In this document: positions 1 to 24,757 of the stretch, piece after piece | How positions within the stretch are numbered: the stretch's first letter is position 1 | Layout: the number at the start of each line of letters is the position of its first letter | Source of the DNA: Paucibacter sp. B2R-40 | GTDB lineage: Bacteria > Pseudomonadota > Gammaproteobacteria > Burkholderiales > Burkholderiaceae_C | DNA: 63,442 nucleotides | Reading direction: 5' to 3' | Assembly (NCBI RefSeq): GCF_025717555.1 | Contig: NZ_JAJIRP010000017.1 | Span: 733 to 64,174 of the forward strand | Position numbers and translations under genes: made by a program | The notes under the pieces: generated by a model | Database searches by the model: none | The model's input: only the letters and a program-made list of their open reading frames with translations | What the model was told of the DNA's origin: nothing

Positions 1-816
1 CTGAGCACCGACGACCTCAATGCGCTGACGGCCACACAGTTCAAGGCCATCAGTTCGGGCCAGATTGCCGCGCTGACGACCGAGCAGGTCAAGTCGCTTT
101 CGACCGATGACTTCGCGGCCATCGGCACCGGCGGCCTGAAGGGTCTGACCGGCACCCAAGCCGCTGCCCTGACGACCGACCAAATCGTGGCACTGACCAC
201 GGCGCAAGCCGCCTCGCTGGGCAGCGCCCAAGTGACAGGCCTGCTGACCGATCAGATCGCAGCCTTGGTGTCCGATGACCTGCGCGCCCTCAACACCGGT
301 GCCCTGCGTGGGCTGAGCACCGAGCAAATCGGTGCCTTCACCTCCGACCAAATCGGTAATTTGACGACGGTGCAAGTTAACGCTTTGACCGCCACGCAGA
401 TCCAGAACCTGAGCACGGACGACCTCAATGCGCTGACGGCCACACAGTTCAAGGCCATCAGTTCGGGCCAGATTGCCGCGCTGACGACCGAGCAGGTCAA
501 GTCCTTGTCGACCGATGACTTCGCCGCCATCGGCACCGGCGGCCTGAAAGGGCTGACCGGCGCTCAAGCCGCCGCCCTCACGACCGATCAGATCGTGGCG
601 ATGACCACGGCGCAAGCCGGCTCGCTGGGGAGCGCTCAAGTGTCGGGTCTGCTGACAGATCAGATCGCCGCCTTGGCCACCGATGACTTGAGAGCCTTCA
701 ATACTTCGGCCTTGAGGAATCTGAGCACCGAACAATTCGGCGCTTTGACGACCGATCAAATCAATGTGCTCTCGACCTCACAACTGCAGTCACTCACGAC
801 CGGGCACTTGTCGACC
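1..816 (+). repeat. 408-bp higher-order tandem repeat (17 octads per unit)
   Basis: Bases 1-408 and 409-816 are two copies of a unit 408 bp long, which is exactly 17 octads of 24 bp. The first roughly 180 bp of the two copies differ at only a few positions; the last third has diverged. The repeat is inside the coding sequence and keeps the frame. More copies may lie upstream of the window. Confidence 0.85.
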
Positions 817-1830
817 TTCGGAACGGATGAAATTGCGTCGCTGGGTTCAAGGCAGATCGCTGCTTTCAGCTCGGTACAAGTGGGCAGCTTGAGCACTGAG
901 CAATTCAGCGCCTTCGACTCGCAGGACATCAAAGCTTTTGTGACATCTCAGATGGCTGGGTTCACGACAGAGCAACTGCACAGCATCACCTCTGATCAAG
1001 TCAAGGGCTTTGACACCGAGGATCTTGCCAAGTTGAACATGAACCAGGTCGTTTCCTTCACGACCGAAGCCTTGAGCGCGATGACCGCCACCCAGCTTGA
1101 CGGGCTCTACCTCGCAACGCCCATCATGTTGGATTTGAATGGCAATGGCATCCAGACCCTGTCCGCGGCGGATGGTGTCAATTTCGATCTGAACGGTACC
1201 GGAAAGACTCACAAATATGGATGGGCAAGCGGCGGCGACGGCTTGTTGGCGATAGACCGCAATGGCGACGGTGTGATCAATAACGGCTCTGAATTGTTCG
1301 GCACCGGGACGATACTGGCCTCGGGCAAACACGCAGCCAATGGCTATTTGGCCATGGCCGCGGAGGACAGCAACCACGACGGCAAACTCGATGCGCATGA
1401 CGTCAATTTCAATAAGCTCAGGGTCTGGGTTGACGGAAACCACGACGGCAAGACGGACGCTGGCGAGCTGAAGACGCTCGCGGATCTGGGCATTACCGAA
1501 CTGGATCTGCATGCCAAGTCAGGTACAGCCGTTGACAACGGCAACTTGGTGGGCTTGGTTTCTGGCTATAAAACGAGTGACGGGGCAACGCATCAAATGG
1601 CTGATGTCTGGTTTGCCAAAGACGTCAAGCCAGGTGAAAAGTCCGGCGAATCTTCACCCGCCTTGAATGATTTGCTGGCGGCCCCGAGCGAAAACCTGCT
1701 GGTTCACGAGGCAATCAACCAGACAGGCGCGTCAATGGGTGGCAAGCAGAGCGAGCTGCACCACGCCTTGCTGGAACGCAAGCTGATCGAAGATGAAGAG
1801 CACAACCGCTTGAACGGACCGTTGATCTAA
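1..1830 (+). CDS. Octad-repeat calcium-binding surface/secreted protein, 5' end outside window
   Basis: The frame is open from base 1, so this is the C-terminal 609 residues of a larger protein. From base 16 to 1095 there are exactly 45 consecutive 8-residue units (pattern I/V/L/F-x-x-L-S/T-S/T-x-Q/D) without one insertion or deletion. A compact C-terminal module follows (about bases 1110-1560). It holds three EF-hand-like acidic loops: DRNGDGVINNGSE, DSNHDGKLDAHD and DGNHDGKTDAGE. Such modules occur in large calcium-binding proteins exported by type I systems, but that link is inferred here. There is no C-terminal membrane anchor or LPXTG motif. The tail is charged and ends with LNGPLI. A second copy of the gene lies immediately downstream, and a LapB-type secretion system lies on the other strand. 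Function is unknown; adhesin or matrix protein is my best guess. Confidence 0.85.
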   Translation: MSTDDLNALTATQFKAISSGQIAALTTEQVKSLSTDDFAAIGTGGLKGLTGTQAAALTTDQIVALTTAQAASLGSAQVTGLLTDQIAALVSDDLRALNTGALRGLSTEQIGAFTSDQIGNLTTVQVNALTATQIQNLSTDDLNALTATQFKAISSGQIAALTTEQVKSLSTDDFAAIGTGGLKGLTGAQAAALTTDQIVAMTTAQAGSLGSAQVSGLLTDQIAALATDDLRAFNTSALRNLSTEQFGALTTDQINVLSTSQLQSLTTGHLSTFGTDEIASLGSRQIAAFSSVQVGSLSTEQFSAFDSQDIKAFVTSQMAGFTTEQLHSITSDQVKGFDTEDLAKLNMNQVVSFTTEALSAMTATQLDGLYLATPIMLDLNGNGIQTLSAADGVNFDLNGTGKTHKYGWASGGDGLLAIDRNGDGVINNGSELFGTGTILASGKHAANGYLAMAAEDSNHDGKLDAHDVNFNKLRVWVDGNHDGKTDAGELKTLADLGITELDLHAKSGTAVDNGNLVGLVSGYKTSDGATHQMADVWFAKDVKPGEKSGESSPALNDLLAAPSENLLVHEAINQTGASMGGKQSELHHALLERKLIEDEEHNRLNGPLI

Positions 1831-1833
1831 GCA

Positions 1834-2163: not shown

Positions 2164-4092
2164 ATGGCTTCATTCATCTCAAGTCTAAACACAGCACAGA
2201 TAACCTTGCTGTCCTCAACCACCTTGGCAGGGTTAAGCTCCTCAGACTGGGCTGCGTTCTCAAGCGCACAAATACAGGCGCTGACGACCCAACAGGCCGC
2301 ATCGCTTGGCCCAACTTCGGTGAACCTCATCAACACCGCACAGTTCTCGGTGTTCGAGACCCAGGACCTGTCGTCCCTTTCAACGCGTGCGATCGTCGCC
2401 TTGAAGACAGATCAACTCGCCGCCCTGGGCTCCGCGCAGATCGGTGCCTTGAGCAGCAACCAGGTGATCAGCCTGACCACGGGCCAGGTGGCCGGTCTGG
2501 GCAGTGATGATTTGAACGCCTTGACCAGCAGCCAGATCGGCGTGCTGACCGCTGCCCAAGTGGGCGCGATCGCCACCGCGTAGATCGCCAACATGACCAG
2601 CGAAGATGTGGTGGCGCTGGGCACACCGGGCATCCGGGCGGTTTCTGCGGCCCAACTGGGCGCGCTGAGCTCGGCCAATGTGCAGGCCCTGACCGCGGCC
2701 CAGGCCGGCGCGCTGAGTGCGACCCAGGTGACGGGTCTGGGCACGGCGCAGATGGCGGTGCTGGAGACGGCCGACCTTACGGCTTTTTCTACCTCTGCAC
2801 TGGGAGCCTTAAGTTCCGGACAATTCTCTGCAATGACCTCACTGCAGATTGGCGCGATGACCAATGTTCAGTTTGGTGTGATCAGCAGTTCGCAAGTTGT
2901 GGGTATCGACACTGCTGACTTTGGTGGCATCGGCACCGAGGATTTCCGTGCACTGAGCATCTCAACCTTGCGGGCGCTCAGCAGTGATCAGATCCAAGCC
3001 ATGAGCGCAAGCCAAGTGGGTGCTTTGAGTACCCAGCAGTTTGGCGCCTTGACGACGGTTCAGATGAAGGGACTTCAGACTGATGACATTGTGATTCTCA
3101 GCACAGGCCAGGTAGCGGCCATGACTACGGCGCAGTTGGGCGCGATATCGACGGCAAACTTCGTGCATCTGGGTTCGGCCGACATCACAGCCTTCACGAC
3201 TTCACAAATTGCAGGTTTGACAACGGATCAACTGACCGCACTGACGACTGAACAGGTCGCGGGTTTTGAAGTGGCGGATATCGCTAAGCTGAATATGACT
3301 CAGTCCACTGCTTTGGTGGCCAACACCGCTGCGATGGGCGTGATGTCAGGTACGCAGCTTGACGCGCTGTTCCTGACTACTCCGATCATGTTGGATTTGA
3401 ACGGCAATGGCATCCAGACCTTGTCCGCGGCCGAAGGTGTCAATTTCGACCTGAATGCCACCGGCATAGCGCACAAGTACGGTTGGGCAAGCGGCGGCGA
3501 CGGCATGCTGGCGATGGACCGCAATGGCGATGGCGTGATCAATAGCGGCGCCGAGTTGTTCGGCTCCGGTACGCAACTGGGCCTGGGTAAACACGCGGCC
3601 AACGGCTACTTGGCGATGGCCGCCGAGGACAGCAACCATGACGGCAAGCTTGACGCGCATGACGCCAACTTCAACAAGCTCAGGGTCTGGGTTGACGCCA
3701 ACCATGACGGCAAGACGGACGCTGGCGAGTTGAAGACGCTCGCGGATCTGGGCATTACCGAGTTGGATCTGCAGGCCAAGTCGAGTACGGCTGTTGACCA
3801 CGGCAACCTGATCGGCTTGGTCTCAGGCTACAAGACGAGTGATGGGGCAACACATCAAATGGCCGACGTCTGGTTCGCCAAGGACGTCAAGCCAGGTGAA
3901 AAATCCGGTGAGCCTACACCTGCCTTGAATGACTTGCTGGCGGCTCCAAGCGAGCACTTGCTGGTTCAGAACGAGGCCAGCAAGACGGACACATCGGTGG
4001 TTGGAAAGCCGAGCGAGTTGCATCACGCCTTGCTCGAGCGCAAGCTGATCGAAGATGAGGAGAACAATCGGGCCAACGGTCCGCTGCTCTAA
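2164..4092 (+). pseudogene. Second octad-repeat calcium-binding protein, interrupted by an in-frame amber codon at 2581
   Basis: This is the paralogue of the gene upstream, with its N-terminus visible. After M-A-S-F, octads begin at base 2176 and 47 units can be counted up to about 3303, then a degenerate unit and the same EF-hand-like module (about 3367-3830) and charged tail. No signal peptide is visible, as expected for a type I substrate. The frame is continuous except for TAG at 2581-2583, the eighth codon of octad 17, where nearly every unit has Gln or an acidic residue. A single C-to-T change of CAG explains it. As written, translation gives a 139-residue repeat-only fragment. A second piece of 499 residues could start at ATG 2593 but has no ribosome binding site. 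Alternatives are a sequencing error, amber suppression or true inactivation. The C-terminal module is very similar to that of the first gene, so the duplication is recent. Confidence 0.8.
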
Positions 4093-4217: not shown

Positions 4218-4253
4218 TTGCTCGAAATTTGGGAGTCAGTGCCTGAGGGGGCC

Positions 4254-5108
4254 TCAGCTGAAAAAATCAGTGATGACGGTCCTGATATCGCGACGCTTGA
4301 TCAGCTCATAGCCTTGCAAGGCATAGGCAGCGCGCTTGGCGTCGTCCTCGACCAGGGCTTGGCATGCGGCTTGAATGTCAGCCGTCTTGACGAAGTTGAG
4401 TCCGCCTGCACGCAAATCGGGTTCTATTTCCAGCTCGTCGTTGTAATCACAGACGACCGCCTTTCGGTTGGCCATCAAGTAGGACACCCGGACAATCTCG
4501 AAAATATTGCCGCGTGAGAAATTGACCACAACTTTGGCCCGGGCAATGAATTCGTCACGTTGCTTGCCCCAGACATTGCACAGGGTCATCACTGACAAGC
4601 CGGTCAAATCTGGCCGTAGCCCGGCGATATTGTGCAAAGCATCAAAGCGGTCCGGCGTGATGTTGCCGTAGTAGAGCACGTCGATGTCTTGCTCTACTTC
4701 GCGCGGCAGCTTCTCCAGGTTGGGGGCATAGGCGGTCTTGGCGTAGTAAGCCGGAAACTTGGGGTTCAGCAAATTCCATGCATCCACATTCGCTTGGCTG
4801 TAGTCCCAAATTTGGAACTTGTTCGCCACATGATGGGCGCCGGTGCCGAACAAGGACTTGCCGGCGTAGCGCTCCATATTGAAGAAGATGGTGTTTTCAG
4901 GGAAGGTGTCGATCAGGCCGAGTTGCAAAGGAATTTGGAAGCCGAAGACGATATTCAAGGCCTCGGGATCGAAATGATTGACGCGCCGATCAACGCTGTG
5001 CCCCAGCGCCGCAAAGCCCCAGTGATAGGACTCCACCACCTCGTTATAGGCATCCAAGATACCGATCTTGGGGTAGAAGGGGTTGTATTGAACCAGGCAA
5101 ATTTTCAT
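4254..5108 (-). CDS. Putative glycosyltransferase, CgeB/GT-B-like
   Basis: This 284-residue protein has no signal peptide or membrane segment and should act in the cytoplasm. The C-terminal half (GNITPDRF, later NFSRGNIFEIVRVSYLMANR and the DYNDELE stretch) resembles the nucleotide-sugar domain of CgeB-like GT-B enzymes, in which a Glu in the E-x-x-R region contacts the donor. The N-terminal half has no motif I recognise. It is the last gene of the minus-strand glycan block, 50 bp after the AlgX-like gene, and ends at the bidirectional terminator. A role as the enzyme adding one sugar of the glycan is inferred from family and location. It could also be an inactive or regulatory relative. Confidence 0.6.
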   Translation of the reverse strand: MKICLVQYNPFYPKIGILDAYNEVVESYHWGFAALGHSVDRRVNHFDPEALNIVFGFQIPLQLGLIDTFPENTIFFNMERYAGKSLFGTGAHHVANKFQIWDYSQANVDAWNLLNPKFPAYYAKTAYAPNLEKLPREVEQDIDVLYYGNITPDRFDALHNIAGLRPDLTGLSVMTLCNVWGKQRDEFIARAKVVVNFSRGNIFEIVRVSYLMANRKAVVCDYNDELEIEPDLRAGGLNFVKTADIQAACQALVEDDAKRAAYALQGYELIKRRDIRTVITDFFS

Positions 5109-5158: not shown

Positions 5159-6100
5159 TTAGGCCGGAGCAAGGTCTTGCGGATGCGGCCGAATCAGGTA
5201 GCGTTCGGCGCTTTGTACCAGGACCAATTGCGCGTTGACGTTTTTGCAGTATTGGAAATCCACCATCGTGTTCCAGACGAAGTGGACTTGGCCAAAATAG
5301 GCCGCCAGCAGGTCGGAGAAGCCCACGTCAAAGGAGTAGCTGTCCCCGAAAATCACCACCGAGGTCTGATATGGCGCATGCTCGTTTTGGAGCACATAGT
5401 GATTGCCGACATGGGCGCCTGTGGTGGCCATCAAGCGGTTGTCATAGACCACGCGGGCACGCCGAGCGATGCTGATGACGCTCTCGAAACAGGGCTCGTC
5501 GGTGTATTTCAACAGCAGGTCATGGCGCCACCAGCTGCGCGCCAGGGGCACATGCTCGAAGTCAAAGGCCAGTTCGGGGCAGACCGCCCGCATCAGCTCG
5601 CAAAAGCCGAACCAGGCGCCACTGGCACACCAATGGCTGTTGCCCCGCCAACACAACTCGGCGCGCCACGATTCGGACTGCAGGCGTTCCACCGGATAGA
5701 CCAAGCCCGAAGGTATTTGCTCAAGCAACTGCAGCGCCGGCCGGGTCTGTGCCACCGTTTGGCTGCCCTGAGGCCAGCGTGCATGAGGAAGGATGGCCTG
5801 TTTCTCGGGCACGATCAAATGGGCGAAACGGGCATTGATGGATGCGCTGGCGGCTTGGCGACGCTCAACCGTCTGTTGCCAGGCCTGCAGCGTTTCTGCG
5901 CTCAGCAGTACCTGACCCAAATACTGTTGCTCCCACGCGTTATTGCCATTGGCAATGAATTGCCAGCCATCCAGCCCCGCAATGGCCACCTGATCCAGCG
6001 ACAGTGTCTCAAATGCTTGGTCGTAATGCCGGGCCAGTCGGGCTCGATTGATGTGCGCGAGCTCACGCTCGACGGCCAAGAATTCGCTCAATCTACTCAT
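5159..6100 (-). CDS. AlgX/AlgJ-like SGNH-fold protein, possible O-acyltransferase
   Basis: The 313-residue protein resembles the SGNH domain of alginate O-acetylation proteins AlgX/AlgJ. It has an early FIANGNNAWEQQYLG segment, a VPEK motif, a GNSHW motif near residue 173 and a GDSYS nucleophile motif near residue 253, in the usual order. In AlgX-type enzymes the second motif is D-x-H-W; here the Asp is Asn, so the catalytic triad is altered or the enzyme is weak. Unlike AlgX, no signal peptide is visible, which suggests a cytoplasmic site of action. It lies 3 bp after the GT2 gene in one transcript. It may acylate a glycan hydroxyl or bind glycan; this is inference. Confidence 0.65.
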   Translation of the reverse strand: MSRLSEFLAVERELAHINRARLARHYDQAFETLSLDQVAIAGLDGWQFIANGNNAWEQQYLGQVLLSAETLQAWQQTVERRQAASASINARFAHLIVPEKQAILPHARWPQGSQTVAQTRPALQLLEQIPSGLVYPVERLQSESWRAELCWRGNSHWCASGAWFGFCELMRAVCPELAFDFEHVPLARSWWRHDLLLKYTDEPCFESVISIARRARVVYDNRLMATTGAHVGNHYVLQNEHAPYQTSVVIFGDSYSFDVGFSDLLAAYFGQVHFVWNTMVDFQYCKNVNAQLVLVQSAERYLIRPHPQDLAPA

Positions 6101-6103: not shown

Positions 6104-7117
6104 CTAACCGATCGCCAAACAGGCTGCGGCGGGCATTTCTTGCCGAGCTGAAGCGCCGCTGTACACCTGCCAAATCGGCATGAATTGCTCTTCCGCGCCG
6201 GCCTGCCCCGCCGCCAAGGCCGGCATCAACGCGCAAAGTTCGGCCATATCCGACTCATGGCCGTAGCGCTGCGCAATGATGGGGCAAAGACTTGCCAAGT
6301 TTGCTGCAGCCTGAGTGGCTTGCAGTTTGCCAAGCCTTCGTCCAGCCAGCGTCAAAGCGATATAGGCCAGATGCGCCAGCTTCATGGGCCGTCCCATCGG
6401 GTTGGCTGAGTGCTGTTCGGCGCTGGTACGGAAATAGCCGAGATGTTCGTTGATAAAGCCCAGTTTCGAGCTCAAGGAGGCCTTTAAAAAAGCGCCCAAA
6501 TCTTCCAAACCGGTGAAGCAAATTCCGTCCATGCTGGGGTCATCCAACTCTGACGCCATGGCCGATGAAAAGGTGGCATTGGAAAATTCTCCCAACCAAT
6601 TGCTGCTGACTCCGGCCGTCTGCGCGAACAAAAGTTCACTGCCCAGAACCAACATGCGTTGGGCATGTTGGGCAATTGCCGGGGGCACCGGTAGGTCACG
6701 CATGGGCTGGCCCGACTCCAGCGCCGTCCAGCGCCGACTCACCACGCAGTTCAAAGCGCCCTGCCCATGGGCGTGCAAATGACGTTCGTAGAAGCTTGGG
6801 TAGGGGATATCGTCATCCAGCAGCAAATGGAACAACTCGGTCGGACCACCGCTTTGATCTCGAAACAAGCGCAGGAGCTGGCGGAAGTTGTTGTAGGCCC
6901 CGCTGCGCGGGCCGGCCACCACCTCGATATTGAGATCCGCCACCGCACTCTTGATCGGCTCGGAGTTCAGCAGGTTCACAAAAGCCTGATCGGGACTGTC
7001 ATCCGAAAAGATGACCTTGGCGGGCTTGACGGTCTGATGCCGTAACGCTGTCAAGAGCTCGACCAAGTACTTGGGCTTGTAGGCAGGGACAAGCGTCGTA
7101 ATTTGCATAGTTGACAT
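6104..7117 (-). CDS. Family 2-type (GT-A) glycosyltransferase
   Basis: The N-terminus MQITTLVPAYKPKYLVELL is the typical start of a GT-A fold family 2 transferase. SDDSPDQ near residue 40 and LLLDDDIPYP near residue 100 match the donor-binding and metal-binding D-x-D positions. The protein is soluble, about 337 residues. I chose ATG 7117, which follows the stop of the aminotransferase gene by one base (TGA-A-ATG); ATG 7108 is a possible alternative. Position between the amino-sugar genes and the AlgX-like gene suggests it transfers the amino sugar made by the neighbours, or a second sugar onto it. Confidence 0.8.
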   Translation of the reverse strand: MSTMQITTLVPAYKPKYLVELLTALRHQTVKPAKVIFSDDSPDQAFVNLLNSEPIKSAVADLNIEVVAGPRSGAYNNFRQLLRLFRDQSGGPTELFHLLLDDDIPYPSFYERHLHAHGQGALNCVVSRRWTALESGQPMRDLPVPPAIAQHAQRMLVLGSELLFAQTAGVSSNWLGEFSNATFSSAMASELDDPSMDGICFTGLEDLGAFLKASLSSKLGFINEHLGYFRTSAEQHSANPMGRPMKLAHLAYIALTLAGRRLGKLQATQAAANLASLCPIIAQRYGHESDMAELCALMPALAAGQAGAEEQFMPIWQVYSGASARQEMPAAACLAIG

Positions 7118-7118
7118 T

Positions 7119-8228
7119 TCAACGCAAGGCAGTTTTGACGACATCAGCAATGCGGCTGACCTCTTGCTCAGTCATATAGGGAGCGATAGGCAGGCTCAAC
7201 AATTGCCCCTGTAGGCGCTCGGCAATGGGCAAGTCCGGCCAGGTTTGGTGGGCATAGGCCTGCTGGGCGTGGCAGGCGATCGGGTAATGCACCATGTGCC
7301 CGATTTCAGCTCGACTCAAAGCGGCTTGCAAATCAGCGCGCCTGTCGGTGCGCACAACCATCAAATGCCAAACCGATTCCGCACCTGCGACAGCTTTGGG
7401 TAGAAGCACAGGCGCGTCTTGCAGCGCTTCGAAATAAGCTGCGGCGAGGCGGCGGCGTGCGGCGTTTTCAGCATCCAGGGCGGGCAGCTTGGCACGCAAA
7501 ACGGCCGCCTGAATTTCATCCAAGCGCGAATTCACGCCGGCCACCTCGTGGTGATACTTGATGCTGGAGCCGTAATTGCGCAGCATGCGCAGGCGCGCCG
7601 CCAGCGCATCGTCATTGGTGGTGATGGCGCCGCCATCTCCCAGCGCGCCAAGATTCTTGCCAGGATAGAAACTGAATCCTGCTGCGTCACCCAAACCGCC
7701 GGTGCGCCGGCCCAGGTATCTGGCGCCATGCGCTTGTGCGGCATCCTCGATCACCTTCAGGCCATGTCGGCGGGCGATCTCCAGAATCGGCGCCATGTCG
7801 GCCGGCTGACCGTATAAATGCACCGGCATGATGGCCTTGGTACGTGCCGTGATCGCTGCTTCAATGCAGGCAGGATCAAGGTTATGCGTCGCCTCATCGG
7901 GTTCGACCGGCACCGGCTGGGCGCCGGCTTGGCTGACCGCCAACCAGGTCGCGATGAAGGTGTTCGAAGGCACAATCACTTCGTCGCCATCACCGATACC
8001 GTAGGCGCGCAGGATCAGATGCAAAGCGTCCAGACCGTCGGCGACACCAATGCAATGCTTGACCTCGCAATAGGCGGCGAACTCTTGCTCGAAGCAGCTG
8101 ACCTCGTTTCCCAAGATGTACCAACCGGAGTCAAGTACGCGCGAGATCGCGGCGCGAATGCTCGCGTCATGTGCGGCATTGACCCGCTTCAGGTCCAGGA
8201 AAGGAATCGCTTGTTGCGTCGTCACCAT
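7119..8228 (-). CDS. fdtB: Sugar 3-aminotransferase, DegT/DnrJ/EryC1 family (FdtB/QdtB type)
   Basis: This PLP enzyme (about 369 residues) shows the DegT family pattern: IPFLDLKR at the start, [19 protein letters not shown] and the PLP lysine in [16 protein letters not shown]. Directly upstream is an FdtA-like 3,4-ketoisomerase. In characterised pathways this pair converts dTDP-4-keto-6-deoxyglucose to dTDP-3-amino-3,6-dideoxy-galactose (Fuc3N) or -glucose (Qui3N). The exact stereochemistry cannot be read from sequence. The start at ATG 8228 is 5 bp after the fdtA stop; an in-frame GTG at 8246 is possible. The enzyme supplies the free amine that the GNAT gene of the cluster could acylate. Confidence 0.88.
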
Positions 8229-8233
8229 ATCGC

Positions 8234-8644: not shown

Positions 8645-8728
8645 GGACACACCCTGTAGCTTGTGCTGAGGATTGTGCATCCAGCCACGAGCGTGTCGGC
8701 GCGAAAAAGGGCCAGGAAAAAGGTCAGA

Positions 8729-15007: not shown

Positions 15008-15008
15008 G

Positions 15009-16022: not shown

Positions 16023-16053
16023 CTGCGTCACTCCATTCATTGATTCTAAAAAT

Positions 16054-16644
16054 TCAGCTCGGGCTGTTGGATCTGCTGCGACCCGCCATGATCAAGGCAT
16101 TCATGCGCGGCAGCGCGGCGGCCCGGTATTCGGCCTCCAGCATGCCGAAGCACAAGGCGTCCTGGAAATGTCCATTGATGAAGTAATGGCGGCGCAAACG
16201 GCCCTCTTCTTTCATGCCCAGAAACTTTTGCCATTTGACCATCAGCAAATTGTCGGACGCGATCGTACCGAAGACGCGTTCCAACTGGAGTTGCTCAAAA
16301 ACCAATTGATAGATCAGCTTCATCGCCTCAACAGCTGCCGGTATGCCGCGCACCGCATCCGGCTCGCCGATCAGAAATCGACCTGGCTCGGCGTGCCGGT
16401 TCACGGTGTCTATCGCGCTGATAGCGACCATGCCAACCGGCCGGCCGTCTTTCAGGCAAATCAGGAAGTTGTACTCTGTTGCGGGCCGAGCGCCAATCCA
16501 AGCCGCTTGTTGCTCCACCGTGGCCGCGCCCCGATTCAGATTGGTGGCTCGCTCGCTTTGACGCCAAGCGAATGTCAGCGCTGCGTGGGAAGGCGTGAGC
16601 GGAATGAGGTCGACGAATTCGCCTTGCAAAGTCACTGCTGGCAT
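16054..16644 (-). CDS. GNAT-family N-acyltransferase
   Basis: The 196-residue protein matches the RimJ/RimL-like branch of GNAT: LQGEFVDLIPLTPSHAA at the start, VGMVAISAIDTVNRHAEPG as the beta-strand pair, and a C-terminal GMKEEGRLRRHYFING segment. The R/Q-x-x-G-x-A loop is weakly kept, which fits use of a donor other than acetyl-CoA. By position beside an ACP it may transfer the custom acyl group to the 3-amino group of the dTDP sugar, as GNAT enzymes do in other amino-sugar pathways. Protein N-acylation is an alternative. Confidence 0.8.
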   Translation of the reverse strand: MPAVTLQGEFVDLIPLTPSHAALTFAWRQSERATNLNRGAATVEQQAAWIGARPATEYNFLICLKDGRPVGMVAISAIDTVNRHAEPGRFLIGEPDAVRGIPAAVEAMKLIYQLVFEQLQLERVFGTIASDNLLMVKWQKFLGMKEEGRLRRHYFINGHFQDALCFGMLEAEYRAAALPRMNALIMAGRSRSNSPS

Positions 16645-16647: not shown

Positions 16648-17580
16648 TCAGACCTTGGGGCTCAGTACCATCGCCAAGGCGCTGGGAACCGGCAAGCCGG
16701 GCTTGGCGGGGGCGTAGGCATTGGCAAAAAAACAATGCTCCATGTGCAGCCCGGCCGCTTCAACCTGCGCCCAAACCTCTTGGGGCTGTCGATAGAGAAA
16801 AATGTGATCGGCATGCGCAGCATTGAGCGCAGCCGTGACAAAAAGCTTGCCGTCGCTGGTACAGAGTTGCTTGAGCCCCTTCAGCAAAGCAACGGGGTCC
16901 TCGAGGTGCTCAAGCACTTCGACGCAAAGCACCGCGCGAAACCGCTGTTCACTGGGCTGCTCGATGATGTTCTGTTGACGGGTCTGATACCGCGCGGCAA
17001 AGCCGAAACTCCCCACATGGGCAGCGGTGAACTCCAATGAGAGCGGGCTGATATCAAAACCGACGCCTCGCAAGTCACTCCGGTGCTGCAGAGCCAGACG
17101 CGAATAGATGCCTGTGCCTACGCCAACTTCGGCGAACTCTGTCACCTGTTGGGCCTGCATCCAAGGCAGGAAATAGCTCTTGAAATATTCGATTTGCTGG
17201 TAATGATGGGGCCACAGATAGTGCGAGAGCAAGAGCCCGGGCAAGTATTGGCGCCGCATATAGTCATCGTTGTAATAGACCTCCGCTGCGGCCTCGGCAT
17301 AGGTTTTGGCTGGATAACACAGCTCTTGCTCGAAACGCTTTTGGCGCCGCATCGAGTCCATGACAAAGGCGGCGTAGCCCTTCACCGCATCGAGCAGCGC
17401 GGCATCACTGGGGTAAAAATTCCCGAGCATGGCCGAAAAGTCCGCACCCCAAGTCGACCCGAATTCTGCGGAGGCACGGTGCACGCTCTCCCGGGCAAAG
17501 CGAGCGGAACCTTCCATCAGGCTCAGGAGCTTGGCGATCGGCGCTGTTTCGGGGCGGGTGCTGTTAGCAATCGTGGGCAT
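16648..17580 (-). CDS. SAM-dependent class I methyltransferase
   Basis: The 310-residue protein has motif I EVGVGTGIYSRLAL near residue 150 and the post-motif VLCVEVLEHLEDPVALLKGL near 225, both typical of class I methyltransferases. The N-terminal 140 residues are helical and unlike common small-molecule methyltransferases. It is the first gene of the glycan module, 3 bp before the GNAT gene. Methyltransferases are frequent in flagellin and surface-glycan islands, where they methylate a hydroxyl of the sugar or of its acyl group. The acceptor is unknown. Confidence 0.82.
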   Translation of the reverse strand: MPTIANSTRPETAPIAKLLSLMEGSARFARESVHRASAEFGSTWGADFSAMLGNFYPSDAALLDAVKGYAAFVMDSMRRQKRFEQELCYPAKTYAEAAAEVYYNDDYMRRQYLPGLLLSHYLWPHHYQQIEYFKSYFLPWMQAQQVTEFAEVGVGTGIYSRLALQHRSDLRGVGFDISPLSLEFTAAHVGSFGFAARYQTRQQNIIEQPSEQRFRAVLCVEVLEHLEDPVALLKGLKQLCTSDGKLFVTAALNAAHADHIFLYRQPQEVWAQVEAAGLHMEHCFFANAYAPAKPGLPVPSALAMVLSPKV

Positions 17581-17702: not shown

Positions 17703-19088
17703 TCAGCGCAGCGGTGTCATAACGCCACGCCCCATCGACCACATCAGTGCCACCAGTTGCTGCGCGTCGAATAAGGCATTCACATGGGCGACTCGCATCG
17801 AATAGTAGTCACCCTCGGCAGCCATCACATCGAACAACGAGCGGCGGCCCAGTTGCTGCCATTGCTGCAGCGTGGAGGCCCGCACTCTGTCGCTATTGCG
17901 CAGAATTTCCACCACACGCCGCGCCCGGTCCAAGGCAGAGGTGGCGGTCTCAAAGGTCTCCAATAGGCGGTATTGTTTGACTTCAACTGTTTCATCACGC
18001 TGCAAGTTGGCCGCTTGATAGCGGTTCTTGGCGGCCTCCAAAGTGGCATCGGCCCCGGGTTGTAGCAAAGGAATATTGACCGTCACGCCGCCAATCCAGT
18101 CGTTTGAACGGCCCACCCCGGCCACCGTCGATCCGTTCACTAGAAGACTGACGCTGGGACGTTGGCCGGCCAACACCGACTCGGCATAACTGCGCTGGGC
18201 ACGGGCTTGCGCCGAAGCCTGCGCCACATCCGGGGCTTGCAAGATGTCGGCTTGCATCTCGACCAAGTCGGGCAGTTGCGCCAACACCGAGCTCAGGCTG
18301 GCACTGACGGGCAGTTGATCACCAACCAGGCGGCGCATCCTGATCTCGGTCTGACGCATCGCAGACAAGGTCTGCTCATATTGCAGATCGGCCTGCTGCA
18401 GACTCTTTTGCGCCTGCACCAGCTCGCTGGCCCTGCCTTTGTCGGCCTTGGTGATGACCTCCAGCGAGTCCACCAGACAGGCCATCTTGCGTACATATTG
18501 GCTGTAGACCTGCGCTTGCAAGGTGTAGCGCCCACGGTCCAAGGCCAAGCTGACGGTCTGCAAGGCCAATTGTTCCTCGGCGCTGCTTTGACCATACTTG
18601 GCCGCACTGGCCAGTTGCGTGCGCCATTCCGTCAACTTGGTGATGCGCCCGGCGTCATACAGAGGTGCAGTGACACTGAGGGTGGCACTGCTTTGCGAGC
18701 CCGTGAGCGTGTTGGCTCCGGGCACTGCATGGCCTATGTAGCCGGCTCTGCCGAGCAAGTTCACCTGGGGGATGCGAGAGGCCTTGGTTTCGGCCACATC
18801 TGCCTCGGCGGCTTGGCTCAATAATTTCAAGGCGCCAATCGAGCGGCTGCGCTGCAAGGCCAAGCCGACCAGTTCCTGCAATTGAGCGCGGGGGTCCGTG
18901 GCACTGGTTTCGACCATGGTGGCGTCGCGCCCTGCCCGTGACGGGCCTGCTTCGTCCTCGCCGCAACGACTCTGACTCTGACTCTGACTCTGACTTTGAC
19001 TTTGACTCTTGGCCTGAGCTGGCGCAGGCGCGGCCCTAGCGCATAGGCTCAGAGCCATTAGCAAAGACAGCACAAGTGGTTTGGACAT
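17703..19088 (-). CDS. TolC-family outer membrane efflux protein of type I secretion system
   Basis: The 461-residue protein starts with a signal peptide (SLLMALSLCARAAPAPA) followed by an unusual Ser-Gln run and an acidic linker. The rest shows the TolC/LapE pattern: long coiled-coil helices with repeated A-A-x-A-D-V-A-x-T-x, YDAGRITKLTEWR, and a second half with the matching NIPLLQPG strand and SLFDVMAAEGDYYSMRVAHV near the end. It forms the outer-membrane trimeric tunnel through which a type I substrate leaves the cell. It lies downstream of the adaptor and ABC genes in the same direction, with a 122-bp gap, so the three form a complete exporter. Confidence 0.9.
   Translation of the reverse strand: MSKPLVLSLLMALSLCARAAPAPAQAKSQSQSQSQSQSQSRCGEDEAGPSRAGRDATMVETSATDPRAQLQELVGLALQRSRSIGALKLLSQAAEADVAETKASRIPQVNLLGRAGYIGHAVPGANTLTGSQSSATLSVTAPLYDAGRITKLTEWRTQLASAAKYGQSSAEEQLALQTVSLALDRGRYTLQAQVYSQYVRKMACLVDSLEVITKADKGRASELVQAQKSLQQADLQYEQTLSAMRQTEIRMRRLVGDQLPVSASLSSVLAQLPDLVEMQADILQAPDVAQASAQARAQRSYAESVLAGQRPSVSLLVNGSTVAGVGRSNDWIGGVTVNIPLLQPGADATLEAAKNRYQAANLQRDETVEVKQYRLLETFETATSALDRARRVVEILRNSDRVRASTLQQWQQLGRRSLFDVMAAEGDYYSMRVAHVNALFDAQQLVALMWSMGRGVMTPLR
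18968..19009 (-). repeat. 6-bp microsatellite, 7 units, in tolC-like gene
   Basis: Seven hexamers (GACTCT or GACTTT as read on the plus strand) encode a Ser-Gln run just after the signal peptide of the TolC-like protein. Copy changes keep the frame, so they would alter linker length but not switch the gene off. Confidence 0.9.
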
Positions 19089-19210: not shown

Positions 19211-20434
19211 CTAGCGCTCGCGCAAGGCTTCTTGCGACTTCATCATTGGGCGCACCAGGTAGCTCAAGACGCTGCGCTCACCGGTTCTGATCTCGACCGT
19301 TGCGGTCATGCCGGGAATCACAGGCAGGGTCTTGCCTTTGAAACGCAGATTGTTGCGCTCGGCGGCAACAGTGGCGCGGTAGTAGCCGCCTTCAGCGCTC
19401 TTTTCGGTCTCGCCCATGGCATCGGGGCTGATGTACTCGATGCGGCCGGTGAGGCCGCCGTAGACGTTGTAGTCATAGCCCGAGAGTTTGACCTGGGCAA
19501 GCTGGCCGACACGCACGAAGCCAATATCGCGAGGCTTGACACGCGCCTCGATCAGCACTCGCGGGCCTATGGGCGAAATCTCCATGATGGGCGCCCCGGC
19601 AGTGACAATTCCACCCACCGTGCTGACGCGAATATTCTTGACCACACCGTGCACAGGTGACTTGAACGTCGTGCGGCTCATCGCATCCTCCCGCACCACC
19701 ATCTGCTCATCGAGCTGGGAAAGCTCGTTTTGTACCCGCACCAACTCACCGCTGGCCTCTTGCCTGAAGCGGCTGATGCGTTCAGCACGTTGCTGCTGAA
19801 GCTCATTGACTTGACGGCTCAGGCGCATCACCTCGACGTCGGACATCAGCCCTTTGGCGGCCATGTCCTGCGCCATCTTCTGTTCGCGCGCCAGCAAGCC
19901 GCTGCTGCGTGCAATGCTGCTGACTGCCTCGTCCATCACGCGTCGCCGGGCTTCATAGGCCTCCATTTCGGCCTCGGCGATGCGCGGCACGGCCAGCACC
20001 TCGCGTGGAAACACGAGCGGTTTGGCGCTGGCCTCAGCGCTCAGCCGGGCCGCTTGAGCCTTCAGCGCAATGCGTTTGGCCTGGCCCTCGTTTTGCTGCG
20101 CCTCGACCCTGGTCGGGTCAAGTCGCGCCAACTCCTGACCTAGCGCGACTTCCTCGCCCTCGCGAACAAATAACTCGCGCAGGATGCCACTTTCCAGACT
20201 GGCGATGACTTGCTCGCGCCCGTCGGGCACGATGCGTCCATCACTGCGGGTGACTTCGTCCACGGTGGCCAGTGCTGACCATGTGAGAGCGACCACGACG
20301 GCGATCAACATCAGGTAGATCGCCCACATGGCATGGGGCAATGGTTCCTCGATCTGAGCATGATTCAAGCCGGTGACGAACATGCCCTCTTCACGGCTCA
20401 GGGCCATGCCGCCGGCCTTGCTTTTGATACTCAT
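19211..20434 (-). CDS. HlyD/LapC-family membrane fusion protein of type I secretion system
   Basis: The 407-residue adaptor has a short cytoplasmic head, one membrane segment (about residues 36-58, MWAIYLMLIAVVVALTW), a lipoyl half-motif DGREQVIASLESGILRELFV, a coiled coil (about 110-270) and a second lipoyl half (FKSPVHGVVKNIRVSTVGGIV). The C-terminus VIPGMTATVEIRTGERSVLSYL is the family signature. It bridges the inner-membrane ABC protein and the TolC-like tunnel. The start is 3 bp after the ABC gene stop. It matches the LapC branch used for large adhesins. Confidence 0.93.
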   Translation of the reverse strand: MSIKSKAGGMALSREEGMFVTGLNHAQIEEPLPHAMWAIYLMLIAVVVALTWSALATVDEVTRSDGRIVPDGREQVIASLESGILRELFVREGEEVALGQELARLDPTRVEAQQNEGQAKRIALKAQAARLSAEASAKPLVFPREVLAVPRIAEAEMEAYEARRRVMDEAVSSIARSSGLLAREQKMAQDMAAKGLMSDVEVMRLSRQVNELQQQRAERISRFRQEASGELVRVQNELSQLDEQMVVREDAMSRTTFKSPVHGVVKNIRVSTVGGIVTAGAPIMEISPIGPRVLIEARVKPRDIGFVRVGQLAQVKLSGYDYNVYGGLTGRIEYISPDAMGETEKSAEGGYYRATVAAERNNLRFKGKTLPVIPGMTATVEIRTGERSVLSYLVRPMMKSQEALRER

Positions 20435-20437
20435 GGC

Positions 20438-22807
20438 TTATACCGAGGCTGAGCGTTGCACCGGCTGGGCCGATGGGTGCATATGCAAATTGGCGCCAGC
20501 TCCGTTGGCCGCGGCTTCTGCAGTTGCCGCGCTGGGCCGCACGCCCGACAAGGCGGCCAAGACCTGGTCACGCGGACCATCCAGCACCACGCGGCCGTTG
20601 TCCACCACCACGATGCGGGCCACCAACTCCAGCACCGCCGGTCGGTGGGTCACGACCACCAGGGTGCAGGTACCGGCGGCATCGCGCAATTGGCGCAAGA
20701 AAGCCATTTCGGACTGTGCATCCATGGAGCTCGTTGGTTCATCCATCAGCAATATTTGCGGCTTGGTGACCAAGCTGCGAGCCAGCGCCACCAGTTGACG
20801 CTGGCCACCCGACAGCAGCCCGCCCATTTCGCCCACGGGCAGGTCCCAGCCCTTGGGGTGGCCGGCGACCACGCGGTCCAAGCCTGTCAGCCGGGCGACC
20901 TCGACCAGTCGCCCCGCGTCCAAATGGGCGCGACCCATCAAGACGTTGTCCCGCAGCGTGCCATGGAAGAGCCGCGGCTCTTGGGACACAAAGCCCACCT
21001 TGGCGCGGAACTCGGCCGGGTCAACCTGGCGCAAATCAATACCATCCACATCCACCATGCCTTCGGTGGGCTGATACAGGCCGGCCAGCAGGCGCAAAAT
21101 TGTCGACTTGCCGCTGCCGATACGGCCCAGCACGGCGACTCGCTCGCCTGCCTGCAGGCGCAGATTGACGGCTTTCAAGATCTTTGGCGCTTCGCCCTGA
21201 CCCACCATGGGGTAGGAGAACCCCACATCGTGAAGCCCGAGCTTGCCACTGACCTGGGTCAAAGGTACATAGTTGCGACTGCCGTCGCGCTCGGTCGGCG
21301 AGTTCATCATCCGGTCCAGCGACAGCATCGCAGCGCGTGCGCCTTGATAGCGCGTCGCCAAACTCACGAGACTGCCCAGCGGCATGATGGCGCGCCCTGC
21401 AAACATCACGGCGCCGATCAATGCGCCGGCCGTAATCAAGCCATCTTGGATCAGATAAACGCCCCAGACCAGCATGATCAAATTGATGGACTGCTGCAGC
21501 GTCATGGTGATGTTGCTGCTCCAACTCGACATATTTCGCGCCCGCAGCGAGGACTCGGCGGCGATAGAGGTGCTGGTTTCATAGCGGCGCAAAAACCTGC
21601 CTTCGGCACCCGAAGTCTTGAGATCCTCCAGGCCCTCAATGGCTTCGACCAGCGTGCCTTGCAGATCGGCTGTCTCGGCCATATTGGTCCGCATGGCCTT
21701 GCGCAAATGGCCTTGAATCGCATAGGTCAAAGCAAGAATCAAGGGAATCGTGAGCACCAGCACCCAGCCCAGCGGGCCGCCGATCACAAAGGTCATGCCG
21801 ACGAACAGCACAATGAAGGGCAAATCGGTCAAGGCCGACATCGTCGCCGAGGTGAAAAACTCGCGCACGACCTCAATCTGAGCCAAGTAATGCGCATAGG
21901 AGCCGGCCGACTCGGGCTTGTGCTCCATGCGCACGCCCAGGGTCTGGCGGAACAACTTGGCACCGATGATCATGTCGGCCTTGCGGCCAGCCAGATCAAT
22001 CAAATGACTGCGCAACTGGCGCGCGAACATATCGAATATCAAGGCCACGCCCGCGCCCACCGCCAGCGTCCAAAGTGTCACCAGCGCTTGATTCGGAATC
22101 ACCTTGTCGTAGATCACCGAAGTAACCAAGCCCGAAACCAGCATCAAGACGTTGCTCAGCAGCGCTGCCAACATGGCCGAGCGGTAGTAGGGAATGAAGC
22201 GCTTCAAAGTGCCCCAGAGCCAATGCTCGCCGGCCACCTTCAGCAGCGGCTCATCGCGGGTGTTGCGGGTGTGAGCTTGGGACTGCTCTTGCGGCGACGA
22301 GACCAGCACAAAGCCACTGTACTCGGGCTCCAGTTCCGAAGTGAAGGCGGTACAACTGGCCGCTTCCGGCCCTGGGAACACCACTTCATAGCGGCCGCCG
22401 GTCGCTTCTGTGCCGTCGTCCAGGCGCTTGACCAACACGCAGGCGTCGCCCTCGTTGAGCAACAGCACCGCCGGCATCAGCAAGGGATTGATGTCGTCGA
22501 TCGATTTGCGCAGCAGGCCGGCGTTATAGCCCGCCTCACGCATCACTCGCAAGGCCTGATCAGGCGCCAGCGGCCCTTCAACCGGAGCGCCGGCGCGCAG
22601 TGACTCGGCCGAGCGTGGCCGGCCATGATGACGGGTCACCCAAGCGAGCGCGCTCAGCAGTGGGTCACCAATGGGCTGCTCCGCCAAACCTTGCAGCGGA
22701 TCGGGCATCACAGGCTCGCTGGCAACCGAGCTATCGGCGGCCAGGCGCAAGCCCTTAGCCGCCTTGGAGACGCTGCCATCAAAGAAGGAATCGTGACGCT
22801 GCGACAC
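20438..22807 (-). CDS. LapB-type type I secretion ABC transporter with degenerate C39-like domain
   Basis: The 789-residue protein has an N-terminal domain (about 40-180) resembling a C39 peptidase but lacking the catalytic Cys (DPLLSALAWVTRHHGRP), so it is a docking domain, not a protease. An ABC transmembrane domain (about 200-480) follows. The ATPase domain has Walker A GRIGSGKST, signature LLSGGQRQ, Walker B ILLMDEPTSS and an H-loop VVTHRP. These features are typical of LapB/LssB exporters of large RTX-type adhesins that carry an uncleaved C-terminal signal. Its substrate is not encoded inside the operon; the octad-repeat proteins at the end of the block are the nearest candidates. No LapD/LapG genes are present. 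Confidence 0.93.
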   Translation of the reverse strand: MSQRHDSFFDGSVSKAAKGLRLAADSSVASEPVMPDPLQGLAEQPIGDPLLSALAWVTRHHGRPRSAESLRAGAPVEGPLAPDQALRVMREAGYNAGLLRKSIDDINPLLMPAVLLLNEGDACVLVKRLDDGTEATGGRYEVVFPGPEAASCTAFTSELEPEYSGFVLVSSPQEQSQAHTRNTRDEPLLKVAGEHWLWGTLKRFIPYYRSAMLAALLSNVLMLVSGLVTSVIYDKVIPNQALVTLWTLAVGAGVALIFDMFARQLRSHLIDLAGRKADMIIGAKLFRQTLGVRMEHKPESAGSYAHYLAQIEVVREFFTSATMSALTDLPFIVLFVGMTFVIGGPLGWVLVLTIPLILALTYAIQGHLRKAMRTNMAETADLQGTLVEAIEGLEDLKTSGAEGRFLRRYETSTSIAAESSLRARNMSSWSSNITMTLQQSINLIMLVWGVYLIQDGLITAGALIGAVMFAGRAIMPLGSLVSLATRYQGARAAMLSLDRMMNSPTERDGSRNYVPLTQVSGKLGLHDVGFSYPMVGQGEAPKILKAVNLRLQAGERVAVLGRIGSGKSTILRLLAGLYQPTEGMVDVDGIDLRQVDPAEFRAKVGFVSQEPRLFHGTLRDNVLMGRAHLDAGRLVEVARLTGLDRVVAGHPKGWDLPVGEMGGLLSGGQRQLVALARSLVTKPQILLMDEPTSSMDAQSEMAFLRQLRDAAGTCTLVVVTHRPAVLELVARIVVVDNGRVVLDGPRDQVLAALSGVRPSAATAEAAANGAGANLHMHPSAQPVQRSASV

Positions 22808-22873
22808 ACTAAGCCTTGGTCTGAAAGGTGTAAAAGGTGTGAGAGCTGAAAAAACCGACCGAATTCAGCTTCC

Positions 22874-24757
22874 TCATGCGCCTGCTTGATCGCCCCGTCG
22901 TTGCGCCAAGGCCATGCGCTCGAATTCATGCTCAAGATCGCGCACAACAGCGGGAATGTCAAACAGTGCCGAGCTGCGCCCCTGCTCGCGCAGATAACGT
23001 TTATAGGATTCAATTCTTGCCGGGTTTTGCCCCAACTGCACCGCCCTGCCCTCGTATTCGGCCAAGCTGAAAGTAATTAAGTCAGGTAAACCAACGGCGC
23101 TCAGCAAACTGCCCGCCATGCGCGAGATATAGCTGCGGCCCGAGCGGGTCAGGATAGGCGTGCCCATCCACAAACAGTCACTCGCGGTGGTGCCGGCGTT
23201 ATAGGGGAAGGTATCCAAGAAGAGGTCCGCCAAGGCAAAGCGCGCCAGGTAGTCCGGCGGCGCCGCGCGCGGGGCAAAGATAAGCCGCTCTTCAAGCACG
23301 TTATGCTCGGCCGCCACACGCAGCATATTGGCCTTGGCCCATTCGTTATCAGCCAATAGCCACATCACGCTGCCGGGCACTTGCTCCAGGATGCGCATCC
23401 AACTGCTGAACACCTCTTCATTGAATTTGTGGTTATTGTTGAACGAGCAATAGACGAAGGCGTTCTCGGGCAGCCCGTACTGCTCGCGGCAAGGTGCCGG
23501 GCCCACTTCGCGCTGGCGGTCGCTGACTTGGTAGCAATTGGGCAGGTAGATCGGACGCTCGGTGCAATAAGGCAGGTACTCGGGCGGCATCACGAAGCGG
23601 TCGGCAATGATCCAGTCCACGCCCGGCAAAGCGGATGTGCCGGGCAGGCCCAGATAGCTGACCTGGATCGGCGCCGGGCGATAGGCCAGAATGTTTGGCC
23701 GAGCGCCGCTGGTCAAGCCCTGCAAGTCGACCAGGATGTCAATGCCTGCTTCGGCGATCAAGCGCGCGGCCGTCAGGTCATCCACACCTGCGAGGCGCAC
23801 ATGGTGGTCCATCGCCTTCAAGATGCGTGCACGCTGCGCGGTTCCGTCCTCTCGGCTCCAGCAAAAGGCATACACCTCAAAGCGGTCACGGTCATGTAAT
23901 TCGAACAATTCGGGCGTCAACAGTCCGACCGCATGCATGCACAAGTCGCCGGACAAATAGCCAATCTTGATGCGCCCTTTGCGAGGCTGGCGTGCCGTGG
24001 CCAGTTCGTGCAAAGGCCTGTCTTTGTAAACCAGCACTTTCTCATGCACAAATCGCTGCGCCGCCATCAGCTGAAGGGCGGGATCATCACTGGCGCTCAA
24101 CATGGCCAGCAGCGATGTGCCCACCAGCAATTGGTTGTGTGTCACGTCGCCGACGGCTTGGTAAACCGGCCAATCGCACTGTTTCTGACGGATGTGCACA
24201 TAGTGCTGAATGACATCGCCCTGGCGGGCCTTGAGCGTCAGGCTTTGTCGCATCAAGGCCTGCGATTCTGCCAAGCGGCGCTGCGTCTCCAGCAGCCGAG
24301 CCGAATTGTTCAGGGCATGCAAAACCAGCTCCAACACCGCAGGGTTGGCGCGGTCCAAAGACGGGTCTTCGAACACCGTTCTCCACTCGCCGAGGGCTTC
24401 TTCGATTCGACCCAAATGTTCCAACTGATGGCCCAAATTCAAGCGGGCCTGGGTAAAGGTAGGGCTCAAAGCCAAGGCCGTCGCGTAAATTTGCTCGGCT
24501 TCGGCGTGTCTGTTCCTCGACCCCAGCAGCGTGCCTAAGTTGTAGCAAGCCACATGCAAGAGGACAGATTTGGTATGGGTCGTCCAATTTTGATAAAGCA
24601 CGATCGCGGCATCGACCAAACCCTCCCGCTGCAGCTTGTCGGCCTTTTCCATCAACACGCTGAGCTCCATCGCACCGGAGCGCGCCAGATCTAGCATTTG
24701 CTCAAGCTCCGGGTTGCTGGCGAGCGAGTCTTTAGTAGCAGGAGTGGTTTTATCCAT
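22874..24757 (-). CDS. GT41-family O-GlcNAc transferase-like protein with TPR repeats
   Basis: The 627-residue protein has TPR-like repeats at about residues 30-200 (YNLGTLLGSRNRHAEAEQIY, ARLNLGHQLEHLGRIEEAL). The C-terminal catalytic region shares the OGT/SPINDLY pattern: GYLSGDLCMHAVG with the catalytic-region His, ILVDLQGLTSGARP, YLGLPGTS, YCSFNNNHKFN with the UDP-contacting Lys, and FLDTFPYNAGTTASDCLWMG. Family members attach a sugar from a nucleotide donor to Ser/Thr, or to Asn in HMW1C, in the cytoplasm. It is the first gene of the block, 66 bp before the ABC transporter, so a secreted protein is a plausible acceptor. The octad repeats downstream are Ser/Thr-rich. Donor sugar and acceptor are inferred, not known. 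Confidence 0.9.
   Translation of the reverse strand: MDKTTPATKDSLASNPELEQMLDLARSGAMELSVLMEKADKLQREGLVDAAIVLYQNWTTHTKSVLLHVACYNLGTLLGSRNRHAEAEQIYATALALSPTFTQARLNLGHQLEHLGRIEEALGEWRTVFEDPSLDRANPAVLELVLHALNNSARLLETQRRLAESQALMRQSLTLKARQGDVIQHYVHIRQKQCDWPVYQAVGDVTHNQLLVGTSLLAMLSASDDPALQLMAAQRFVHEKVLVYKDRPLHELATARQPRKGRIKIGYLSGDLCMHAVGLLTPELFELHDRDRFEVYAFCWSREDGTAQRARILKAMDHHVRLAGVDDLTAARLIAEAGIDILVDLQGLTSGARPNILAYRPAPIQVSYLGLPGTSALPGVDWIIADRFVMPPEYLPYCTERPIYLPNCYQVSDRQREVGPAPCREQYGLPENAFVYCSFNNNHKFNEEVFSSWMRILEQVPGSVMWLLADNEWAKANMLRVAAEHNVLEERLIFAPRAAPPDYLARFALADLFLDTFPYNAGTTASDCLWMGTPILTRSGRSYISRMAGSLLSAVGLPDLITFSLAEYEGRAVQLGQNPARIESYKRYLREQGRSSALFDIPAVVRDLEHEFERMALAQRRGDQAGA

Follow-up and report, generated by a model that had tools for sequence, protein, structure and literature searches.

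In the serine-rich repeat adhesin systems with accessory Sec, a Ser/Thr-rich repeat surface protein of Gram-positive bacteria is glycosylated intracellularly, released by a dedicated exporter and decorated in a strain-specific manner. The locus considered here lies in a 63,442-nucleotide stretch of Paucibacter sp. B2R-40 (the window, G000:C9:733-64174; the genome is 5.61 Mb in 50 contigs). Two genes for octad-repeat proteins at 1-4092 are convergent with a block of 19 genes, all on one strand, which runs from 24757 to 4254 with overlaps or gaps of 0-122 bp. As in serine-rich-repeat systems, Ser/Thr-rich repeats, a glycosyltransferase and an exporter are found in one locus. The differences are type I export genes and an OGT-type GT41 glycosyltransferase instead of SecA2/SecY2 (no search aimed at which was made) and its glycosyltransferases, the predicted short-helix octad repeats, and the Gram-negative host. 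By this analogy, the locus can be read as a type I secretion counterpart of the serine-rich-repeat adhesin systems, which would be its closest working analogue.

Other described systems share single parts. A GT41-superfamily enzyme also acts on a secreted adhesin in HMW1-HMW1B-HMW1C; here, the GT41 is of the OGT type, Ser/Thr sites are expected, and a type I exporter takes the place of two-partner secretion. LapA-LapBC-LapE uses the same exporter family (TIGR03375, TIGR01843), to which this locus adds glycosylation genes; LapA differs from the octad-repeat proteins in both its repeats and its C-terminus. The RTX proteins FrpC and ApxIVA share a C-terminal module. Caulobacter FlmG is, like the predicted enzyme here, a soluble O-glycosyltransferase with tetratricopeptide repeat (TPR) and GT-B parts, an exported substrate and an exotic sugar donor; its substrate is flagellin, which leaves by the flagellar exporter, with no type I exporter (PMC7591256). 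By layout, FlmG appears to be the nearest enzyme analogue.

Taken together, the content of the locus and its recurrence among relatives make it probable that the octad-repeat proteins are joint substrates: the GT41 would O-glycosylate octad Ser/Thr residues in the cytoplasm, and LapB-LapC-TolC would then export the chain. An earlier note on this DNA had proposed the octad proteins as substrates of both glycosyltransferase and exporter, and co-occurrence and locus architecture now lend that proposal strong support at the level of sequence. The 19 same-strand genes it described are all present. Domain matches agree with the GT41, the LapB/LapC/TolC-type exporter and the acyl-amino-sugar genes that it had named (GT41, LssB/LapB, HlyD/LapC, OEP, FdtA, DegT aminotransferase, FabH, MaoC-SDR, acyl carrier proteins or ACPs, AMP ligase, metallo-beta-lactamase, GNAT and methyltransferase). 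The octads belong to an existing Pfam family, PF20080 (the ALTTAQ repeat), and the three window frames score far above chance (290.4, 116.5 and 163.9 bits; cut-off 26.4). The name of this family was absent from the open-access literature searched. Nor, among the open-access matches listed, was there a description of GT41, a type I exporter and octads in combination.

Co-occurrence and locus architecture

Co-occurrence was assessed in 120 genomes drawn from the family, with ALTTAQ counts prefiltered by an octad profile built from a protein on contig C48 of the same genome. Window-type GT41s, defined by a gap in score (at least 860 bits, with the next GT41s at 488 or below), occur in 19 of the 120. 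PF20080 is detected at 1e-9 in 26 genomes, comprising 19/19 with a window-type GT41 and 7/101 others (Fisher 1.1e-16); because the genomes are related, the Fisher values overstate independence and are a guide only, which weakens them as support. With any GT41 at 1e-120, ALTTAQ is present in 23/37 genomes versus 3/83 (3.8e-12); with LssB at 1e-190, the figures are 23/59 versus 3/61 (3.7e-6). The glycosyltransferase is therefore a better predictor of the array than is membership of the exporter family. LssB was rejected as a marker of the system, being too widespread (59/120 genomes). An LssB match adjoins the GT41 in all 19 window-type genomes, so the search for GT41, LapB and octads together that the earlier note had suggested found both partners throughout this set.

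The neighbourhood stretches examined span 5-60 kb, and array positions were taken from the best-scoring repeats plus the fetched stretches. The array shares a contig with the GT41 in 16 of the 19 genomes, its nearest edge lying 7.7-29.7 kb downstream; that all 16 are downstream is partly set by choice, as mainly the downstream side was fetched for G034, G030, G011, G005, G052, G116 and G028. LapB lies between GT41 and array in every one of these 16. Fifteen of the arrays converge with the GT41; that of G056 shares its strand. The exceptions to linkage are G052 and G116, at contig ends, and G028, whose arrays are on contigs C10 and C102. In G056, GT41 and LapB also share one 1403-residue frame (L056 8066-12277, - strand) with the GT41 C-terminus in another, either a fusion or a frameshift or error.

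The interval between TolC and the array is variable. Gene labels here derive from BLAST to the window proteins at 40% coverage, and those of low-identity TolC and FdtB matches may denote paralogues. The simplest locus seen, in G013, reads GT41-LapB-LapC-TolC-FdtA-FdtB facing the array; G075 and G036 have additional frames. In G036 and G013, the two genomes checked, FdtA forms a fusion with a hexapeptide acyltransferase. Nearly the whole acyl-sugar set of the window is found in G062 and G077, with differing sets in other genomes. Seven genomes (G062, G077, G119, G007, G111, G075 and G013) have a homologue of the family 2-like glycosyltransferase (6104-7150) within the locus or next to the array, and another adjoins one of the separate G028 arrays. 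Because the sugar genes vary between genomes, the glycan coat is likely to be strain-specific.

The combination is also seen with more distant enzymes. Of the named relatives found, two Paucibacter strains are the closest (GT41s 94-95% identical). Outside the window-type set, diverged GT41s (33-36%) share a contig with an array in G012 (4.2 kb), G046 (18 kb) and G067 (5.5 kb). A search at 1e-140 across 369 genomes from the class added just two GT41s: that of G729 (825 bits), where ALTTAQ-LapB-LapC-GT41 share a strand, and that of G699 (482 bits), a genome in which no ALTTAQ match was found at 1e-6. Across the phylum, PF20080 at 1e-9 occurs in 8/398 genomes, the window's own included. The GT41 begins 84 bp past the array gene in G484. 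In G223, a protein of 3767 residues that combines four GT41 units with numerous TPRs (L084 251-11554, - strand) is divergent from an ALTTAQ array 1.2 kb away. A Polynucleobacter metagenome-assembled genome (L039) reads ALTTAQ-LapB-LapC-TolC-GT41, and Geomesophilobacter (L037) reads ALTTAQ-GT41, with LapB not seen in the flank. In the other five phylum genomes with PF20080 (G159, G183, G207, G235 and G247), no GT41 was found in the fetched stretches, some of which end at contig edges.

Enzymes and exporter of the block

The features of the octad genes and the 19-gene block, followed by a second secretion locus on contig C48, are as follows.

1..1830, + strand: ALTTAQ octad-repeat protein, 3' part, 609 residues (PF20080, 290.4 bits in 11 stretches)
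1120..1620, + strand: FrpC-type self-processing module, calcium-binding, of octad gene 1, with Thr-Pro (profile match 6sjw; Foldseek 6sjx)
1621..1830, + strand: C-terminal tail, acidic and then PLI at the end, proposed exporter signal (tail pattern)
2164..2583, + strand: octad gene 2, first part, ending at an in-frame TAG at 2581-2583 (PF20080, 116.5 bits)
2593..4092, + strand: octad gene 2, second part in the same frame, with repeats, self-processing module and PLL tail (PF20080, 163.9 bits)
4254..5108, - strand: putative glycosyltransferase (Glyco_trans_1_2, weak: PF13524, 20.8 bits, under the cut-off of 25), with homologues at the equivalent place in G062 and G077
5159..6100, - strand: protein of unassigned family (no Pfam or NCBIfam match at 0.001), conserved with the full sugar cluster (71-72% in G062 and G077)
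6104..7150, - strand: family 2-like glycosyltransferase (PF00535, 21.9 bits, under the cut-off of 23.3)
7119..8246, - strand: FdtB/QdtB-type sugar 3-aminotransferase (PF01041, 412 bits; PDB 2oga, QdtB 3frk)
8234..8680, - strand: FdtA/QdtA-type dTDP-sugar 3,4-ketoisomerase (PF05523, 195 bits; PDB 5tpu, 2pa7)
8729..10069, - strand: AMP-forming acyl ligase (PF00501, 104.5 bits)
10072..10347, - strand: acyl carrier protein 2 (PF00550, 32.5 bits)
10301..12091, - strand: HAD protein, presumably FkbH-like (PF00702 below cut-off; PDB 3slr, 3.9e-33)
12085..13281, - strand: MaoC-SDR fusion (PF01575, PF13561)
13278..14315, - strand: FabH-like 3-oxoacyl-ACP synthase III (PF08541, PF08545)
14312..15109, - strand: metallo-beta-lactamase-fold hydrolase (PF00753, 83.4 bits)
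15009..15719, - strand: short-chain dehydrogenase, FabG-like (PF00106, 136 bits)
15720..16040, - strand: ACP-like protein 1 (from position and sequence; no Pfam family matched)
16054..16644, - strand: GNAT N-acyltransferase, candidate for sugar N-acylation (PF13302, 49.8 bits)
16648..17580, - strand: S-adenosylmethionine-dependent methyltransferase (PF08242, 50.8 bits)
17703..19088, - strand: TolC-type outer-membrane channel (PF02321, 85.7 bits)
19211..20434, - strand: LapC/HlyD-type adaptor (TIGR01843, 322 bits; cut-off 208.65)
20438..22807, - strand: LapB/LssB-type type I secretion ABC transporter (TIGR03375, 790.6 bits; cut-off 693.1)
22874..24757, - strand: OGT-type GT41 glycosyltransferase with TPR-like N-terminus (PF13844; XcOGT 2jlb)
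Contig C48, L041 5350-10621 and 10885-19901, L042 1-4639, - strand: RTX protein and exporter set

The GT41 domain is matched in two stretches (143.6 and 126.4 bits; cut-off 25). Its closest solved structures are XcOGT (2jlb, 9.2e-81) and human OGT (1.1e-79), and no chain named HMW1C is among its 35 structure matches. H274 and K443, which would correspond to the catalytic and UDP-binding residues of OGT, are invariant in 17/17 alignment rows. The octad proteins contain fewer N-X-S/T sites than expected, with 201 observed versus a mean of 338.5 (301-390) in 100 whole-protein shuffles, and 178 versus 289 (244-327) once module and tail are removed where the module pattern is found; against this stands the loss of octad periodicity in the shuffles, a periodicity that may itself lower N-X-S/T counts. 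Given an OGT-type GT41 and this depletion, a Ser/Thr (O-) linkage is expected rather than one through Asn. HMW1C-type N-glycosylation was rejected on the same two grounds, and the comparison with HMW1C drawn in the earlier note does not hold.

The sugar product is a fair prediction. FdtB matches PDB 2oga (6.9e-123) and QdtB 3frk (8.3e-118), FdtA matches 5tpu (1.1e-35) and 2pa7 (2.3e-31), and the genome holds a single RmlB at 1e-80; because of these structure matches and the one RmlB, the pathway is predicted to yield dTDP-3-amino-3,6-dideoxyhexose. Of the two ACPs, a Pfam match was obtained for the second only. FkbH-type proteins are able to charge ACPs with glyceryl groups. The frame of the FkbH-like gene is open from 12466, with an ATG at 12091, and its start is probably 12091 rather than 12466.

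The LapB/LssB transporter is the only one in the genome above the TIGR03375 cut-off. The channel scores 60.1 bits with TIGR01844, under the cut-off of 225.15, and 85.7 with the generic OEP family, for which the cut-off is 22. Gene proximity makes the octad proteins the likely cargo of this exporter. The earlier note had likened them to LapB-exported adhesins, a comparison that stands for the exporter family and fails for LapG: the LapG cleavage motif, sought as [TPAS]AAG, occurs in 0/29 ALTTAQ frames within the first 150 residues, some frames perhaps not being read from their true start. LapA-like retention by LapG was rejected on this result. A LapG-family gene is present elsewhere in the genome. 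The label "adhesin" for the octad proteins is a guess.

Two further genes were noted elsewhere in the window: a long DUF5649-repeat protein (58111-63441, - strand) that continues past the window edge and, adjoining it, a caspase-domain (Peptidase_C14) protein (56605-57999, - strand).

Octad arrays, module and tail

Tiling of 27 linked frames gave 5714 octads, from which the repeat was characterized. They follow the consensus L-[TS]-[TS]-x-Q-[LVI]-x-A and contain almost no Cys; Ser or Thr fills position 2 in 52% of them and position 3 in 77%. An AlphaFold2 model of window protein 1, run on its alignment with four further sequences, places a single helix of 4-6 residues in each octad, with a pLDDT of ~91 across the first 300 residues. 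The predicted shape of the array is thus a screw made up of short helices. The closest solved sequence is itself an octad protein, 9zem HeliScrew4 (1.3e-13 in a sequence search), for which the open-access literature search found no paper. Foldseek on the repeat part returned no convincing solved fold, with mesothelin matched only at low TM-score.

Gene 1 is the 3' part of a longer gene, with a run of Ns and more repeats just upstream. Contig C48 likewise ends within an ALTTAQ array, and carries a 2070-residue ALTTAQ protein plus one more, partial. The two contigs may adjoin; against this, comparison of their ends found zero shared overlap.

The C-terminal domain is an FrpC-type self-processing module (6sjw at 7.9e-53 by profile; 6sjx at 7.7e-9 by Foldseek). 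Its calcium loops are kept in the octad proteins, as judged by the loop positions in PMC7078468. The calcium loops that the earlier note had seen are therefore present, as parts of this one domain. In the window proteins, Thr-Pro stands at the scissile Asp-Pro site of FrpC, and active self-processing (clip-and-link) is unlikely with the scissile Asp so replaced. The module-start pattern was found in 32/46 ALTTAQ frames, where the residue before Pro is Ser or Thr in 32/32; proteins added later contribute Ser/Thr-Pro in three more and Asp-Pro in one (G067 C33).

Ser/Thr-Pro as a trait specific to ALTTAQ proteins was rejected, since it is common among relatives of the module. Over 120 listed relatives, a loose pattern, some of whose matches fall outside the module, gives S 62, D 28, A 25 and T 22, with others fewer. 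This suggests that many FrpC-type relatives may not self-process. RTX repeats were counted by eye in 104 of these 120 (225 relatives were found). In contrast to FrpC and ApxIVA, RTX nonapeptides (PF00353) are absent from the scanned ALTTAQ proteins of this genome; one database protein, P0019, carries both repeats.

The tail ends in acidic-x-PLI in 23/33 module-bearing proteins, and six have other hydrophobic ends. Unrelated tails occur in G484, G012, L037 and L039; in these, the exporter is either a different one or was not detected.

Proposed route, alternatives and meaning

The proposed route would begin in the cytoplasm, where the TPR part of the GT41 may hold the unfolded repeat chain while its catalytic part transfers an initial sugar to the Ser/Thr residues of octad positions 2 and 3. 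FdtA and FdtB would make dTDP-3-amino-3,6-dideoxyhexose, and the ACP, FabH, MaoC-SDR, ligase and GNAT genes would make and attach an unusual acyl group. Either the GT41 or the GT2-like enzyme could then place the acyl-amino-sugar on the protein or on the first sugar. Next, LapB would read the acidic-PLI tail, and the chain would be threaded C-terminus first via LapC and TolC in one step. Outside, calcium would fold the self-processing-type module and the octads would wind into a long rod of short helices. The cell would thereby carry or shed a glycosylated filamentous surface protein.

Several observations count against joint glycosylation and export of the ALTTAQ proteins. In the open-access literature searched, as far as its texts were available, passage of a glycosylated chain through a type I channel is undocumented. 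Window gene 2 is broken, and array frames are also split in G013 and G056; ALTTAQ arrays may often break or be misassembled. A solitary 2060-residue ALTTAQ protein on contig C23 (L043 10035-16217, + strand) lies beside molybdenum-cofactor genes, with no GT41 or exporter genes seen in the fetched 20 kb. LssB occurs without ALTTAQ in 36/59 genomes. Arrays occur without a GT41 at 1e-120 in G024, G055 and G101, the last of which has a contig-end GT41 fragment beside LapB-LapC-TolC and its array on another contig. The G028 arrays sit on other contigs than the GT41, and two large proteins of no known family lie between GT41 and array in G030. In a distant family, f47, a GT41 was found in just 1/10 fetched neighbourhoods, one of which (G183 C28) ends just short of its array match. 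Finally, a 4551-residue RTX frame with a PA14 domain starts 0.9 kb from an ALTTAQ gene on C48, followed by its own ABC, OEP and HlyD genes. The earlier note had held that a different type I substrate adjacent to the system would speak against its proposal; such a neighbour does exist, and the objection is mild, the C48 ABC transporter scoring 414.5 bits, under the LssB cut-off of 693.1.

These exporter genes give some ground to the possibility that a different type I exporter, for example that of the C48 RTX set, carries the ALTTAQ proteins out, with LapB serving an unseen substrate. The G119 locus, which contains an RTX protein with its own ABC transporter, and the two large proteins in G030 point the same way. 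Set against them are the position of LapB between GT41 and array in 16/16 linked genomes, with RTX sets noticed in two, no systematic search for them having been made; two RTX tails unlike the ALTTAQ tail; and exporter genes that immediately follow the array gene in L039 and G729. Of the alternatives weighed, this is the least probable. Only marginally less remote is linkage through shared horizontal transfer of a surface island, with no biochemical dependence among its parts. The patchy distribution in the family and the differing sugar genes are consistent with such transfer; yet the combination recurs with GT41s at 33-51% identity and in differing gene orders, which chance co-transfer would hardly keep.

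Unlikely too, if less so than either of these, is that the exporter secretes the ALTTAQ proteins while the GT41 and sugar genes modify flagellin, lipopolysaccharide or capsule, all parts belonging to a shared surface-structure island. Acyl-sugar genes of this kind resemble flagellin and O-antigen decoration clusters, and GT41s at 1e-120 occur without ALTTAQ in 14/37 genomes. FlmG, a TPR-bearing soluble O-glycosyltransferase, acts on flagellins (PMC7591256). However, the window-type GT41 was never seen without ALTTAQ (19/19), and the GT41 directly follows the array gene in G484 and L037.

Joint glycosylation and export of the ALTTAQ proteins thus stays the preferred account. In its full form, an OGT-type enzyme would coat a giant octad screw with a strain-specific acyl-amino-sugar in the cytoplasm, LapB would export it, and PF20080 would be a substrate class across several lineages; that this is a founding example of glycoprotein type I secretion is favoured by a narrow balance. 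If true, PF20080 would gain a function, that of substrate in a pathway coupling glycosylation with secretion, and type I exporters could carry heavily glycosylated chains. The reading makes testable what bacterial OGT-type GT41s target, with a G013 locus small enough for study in a laboratory host, and how Gram-negative bacteria build strain-variable, protein-borne glycan coats comparable to those of the serine-rich-repeat adhesins.

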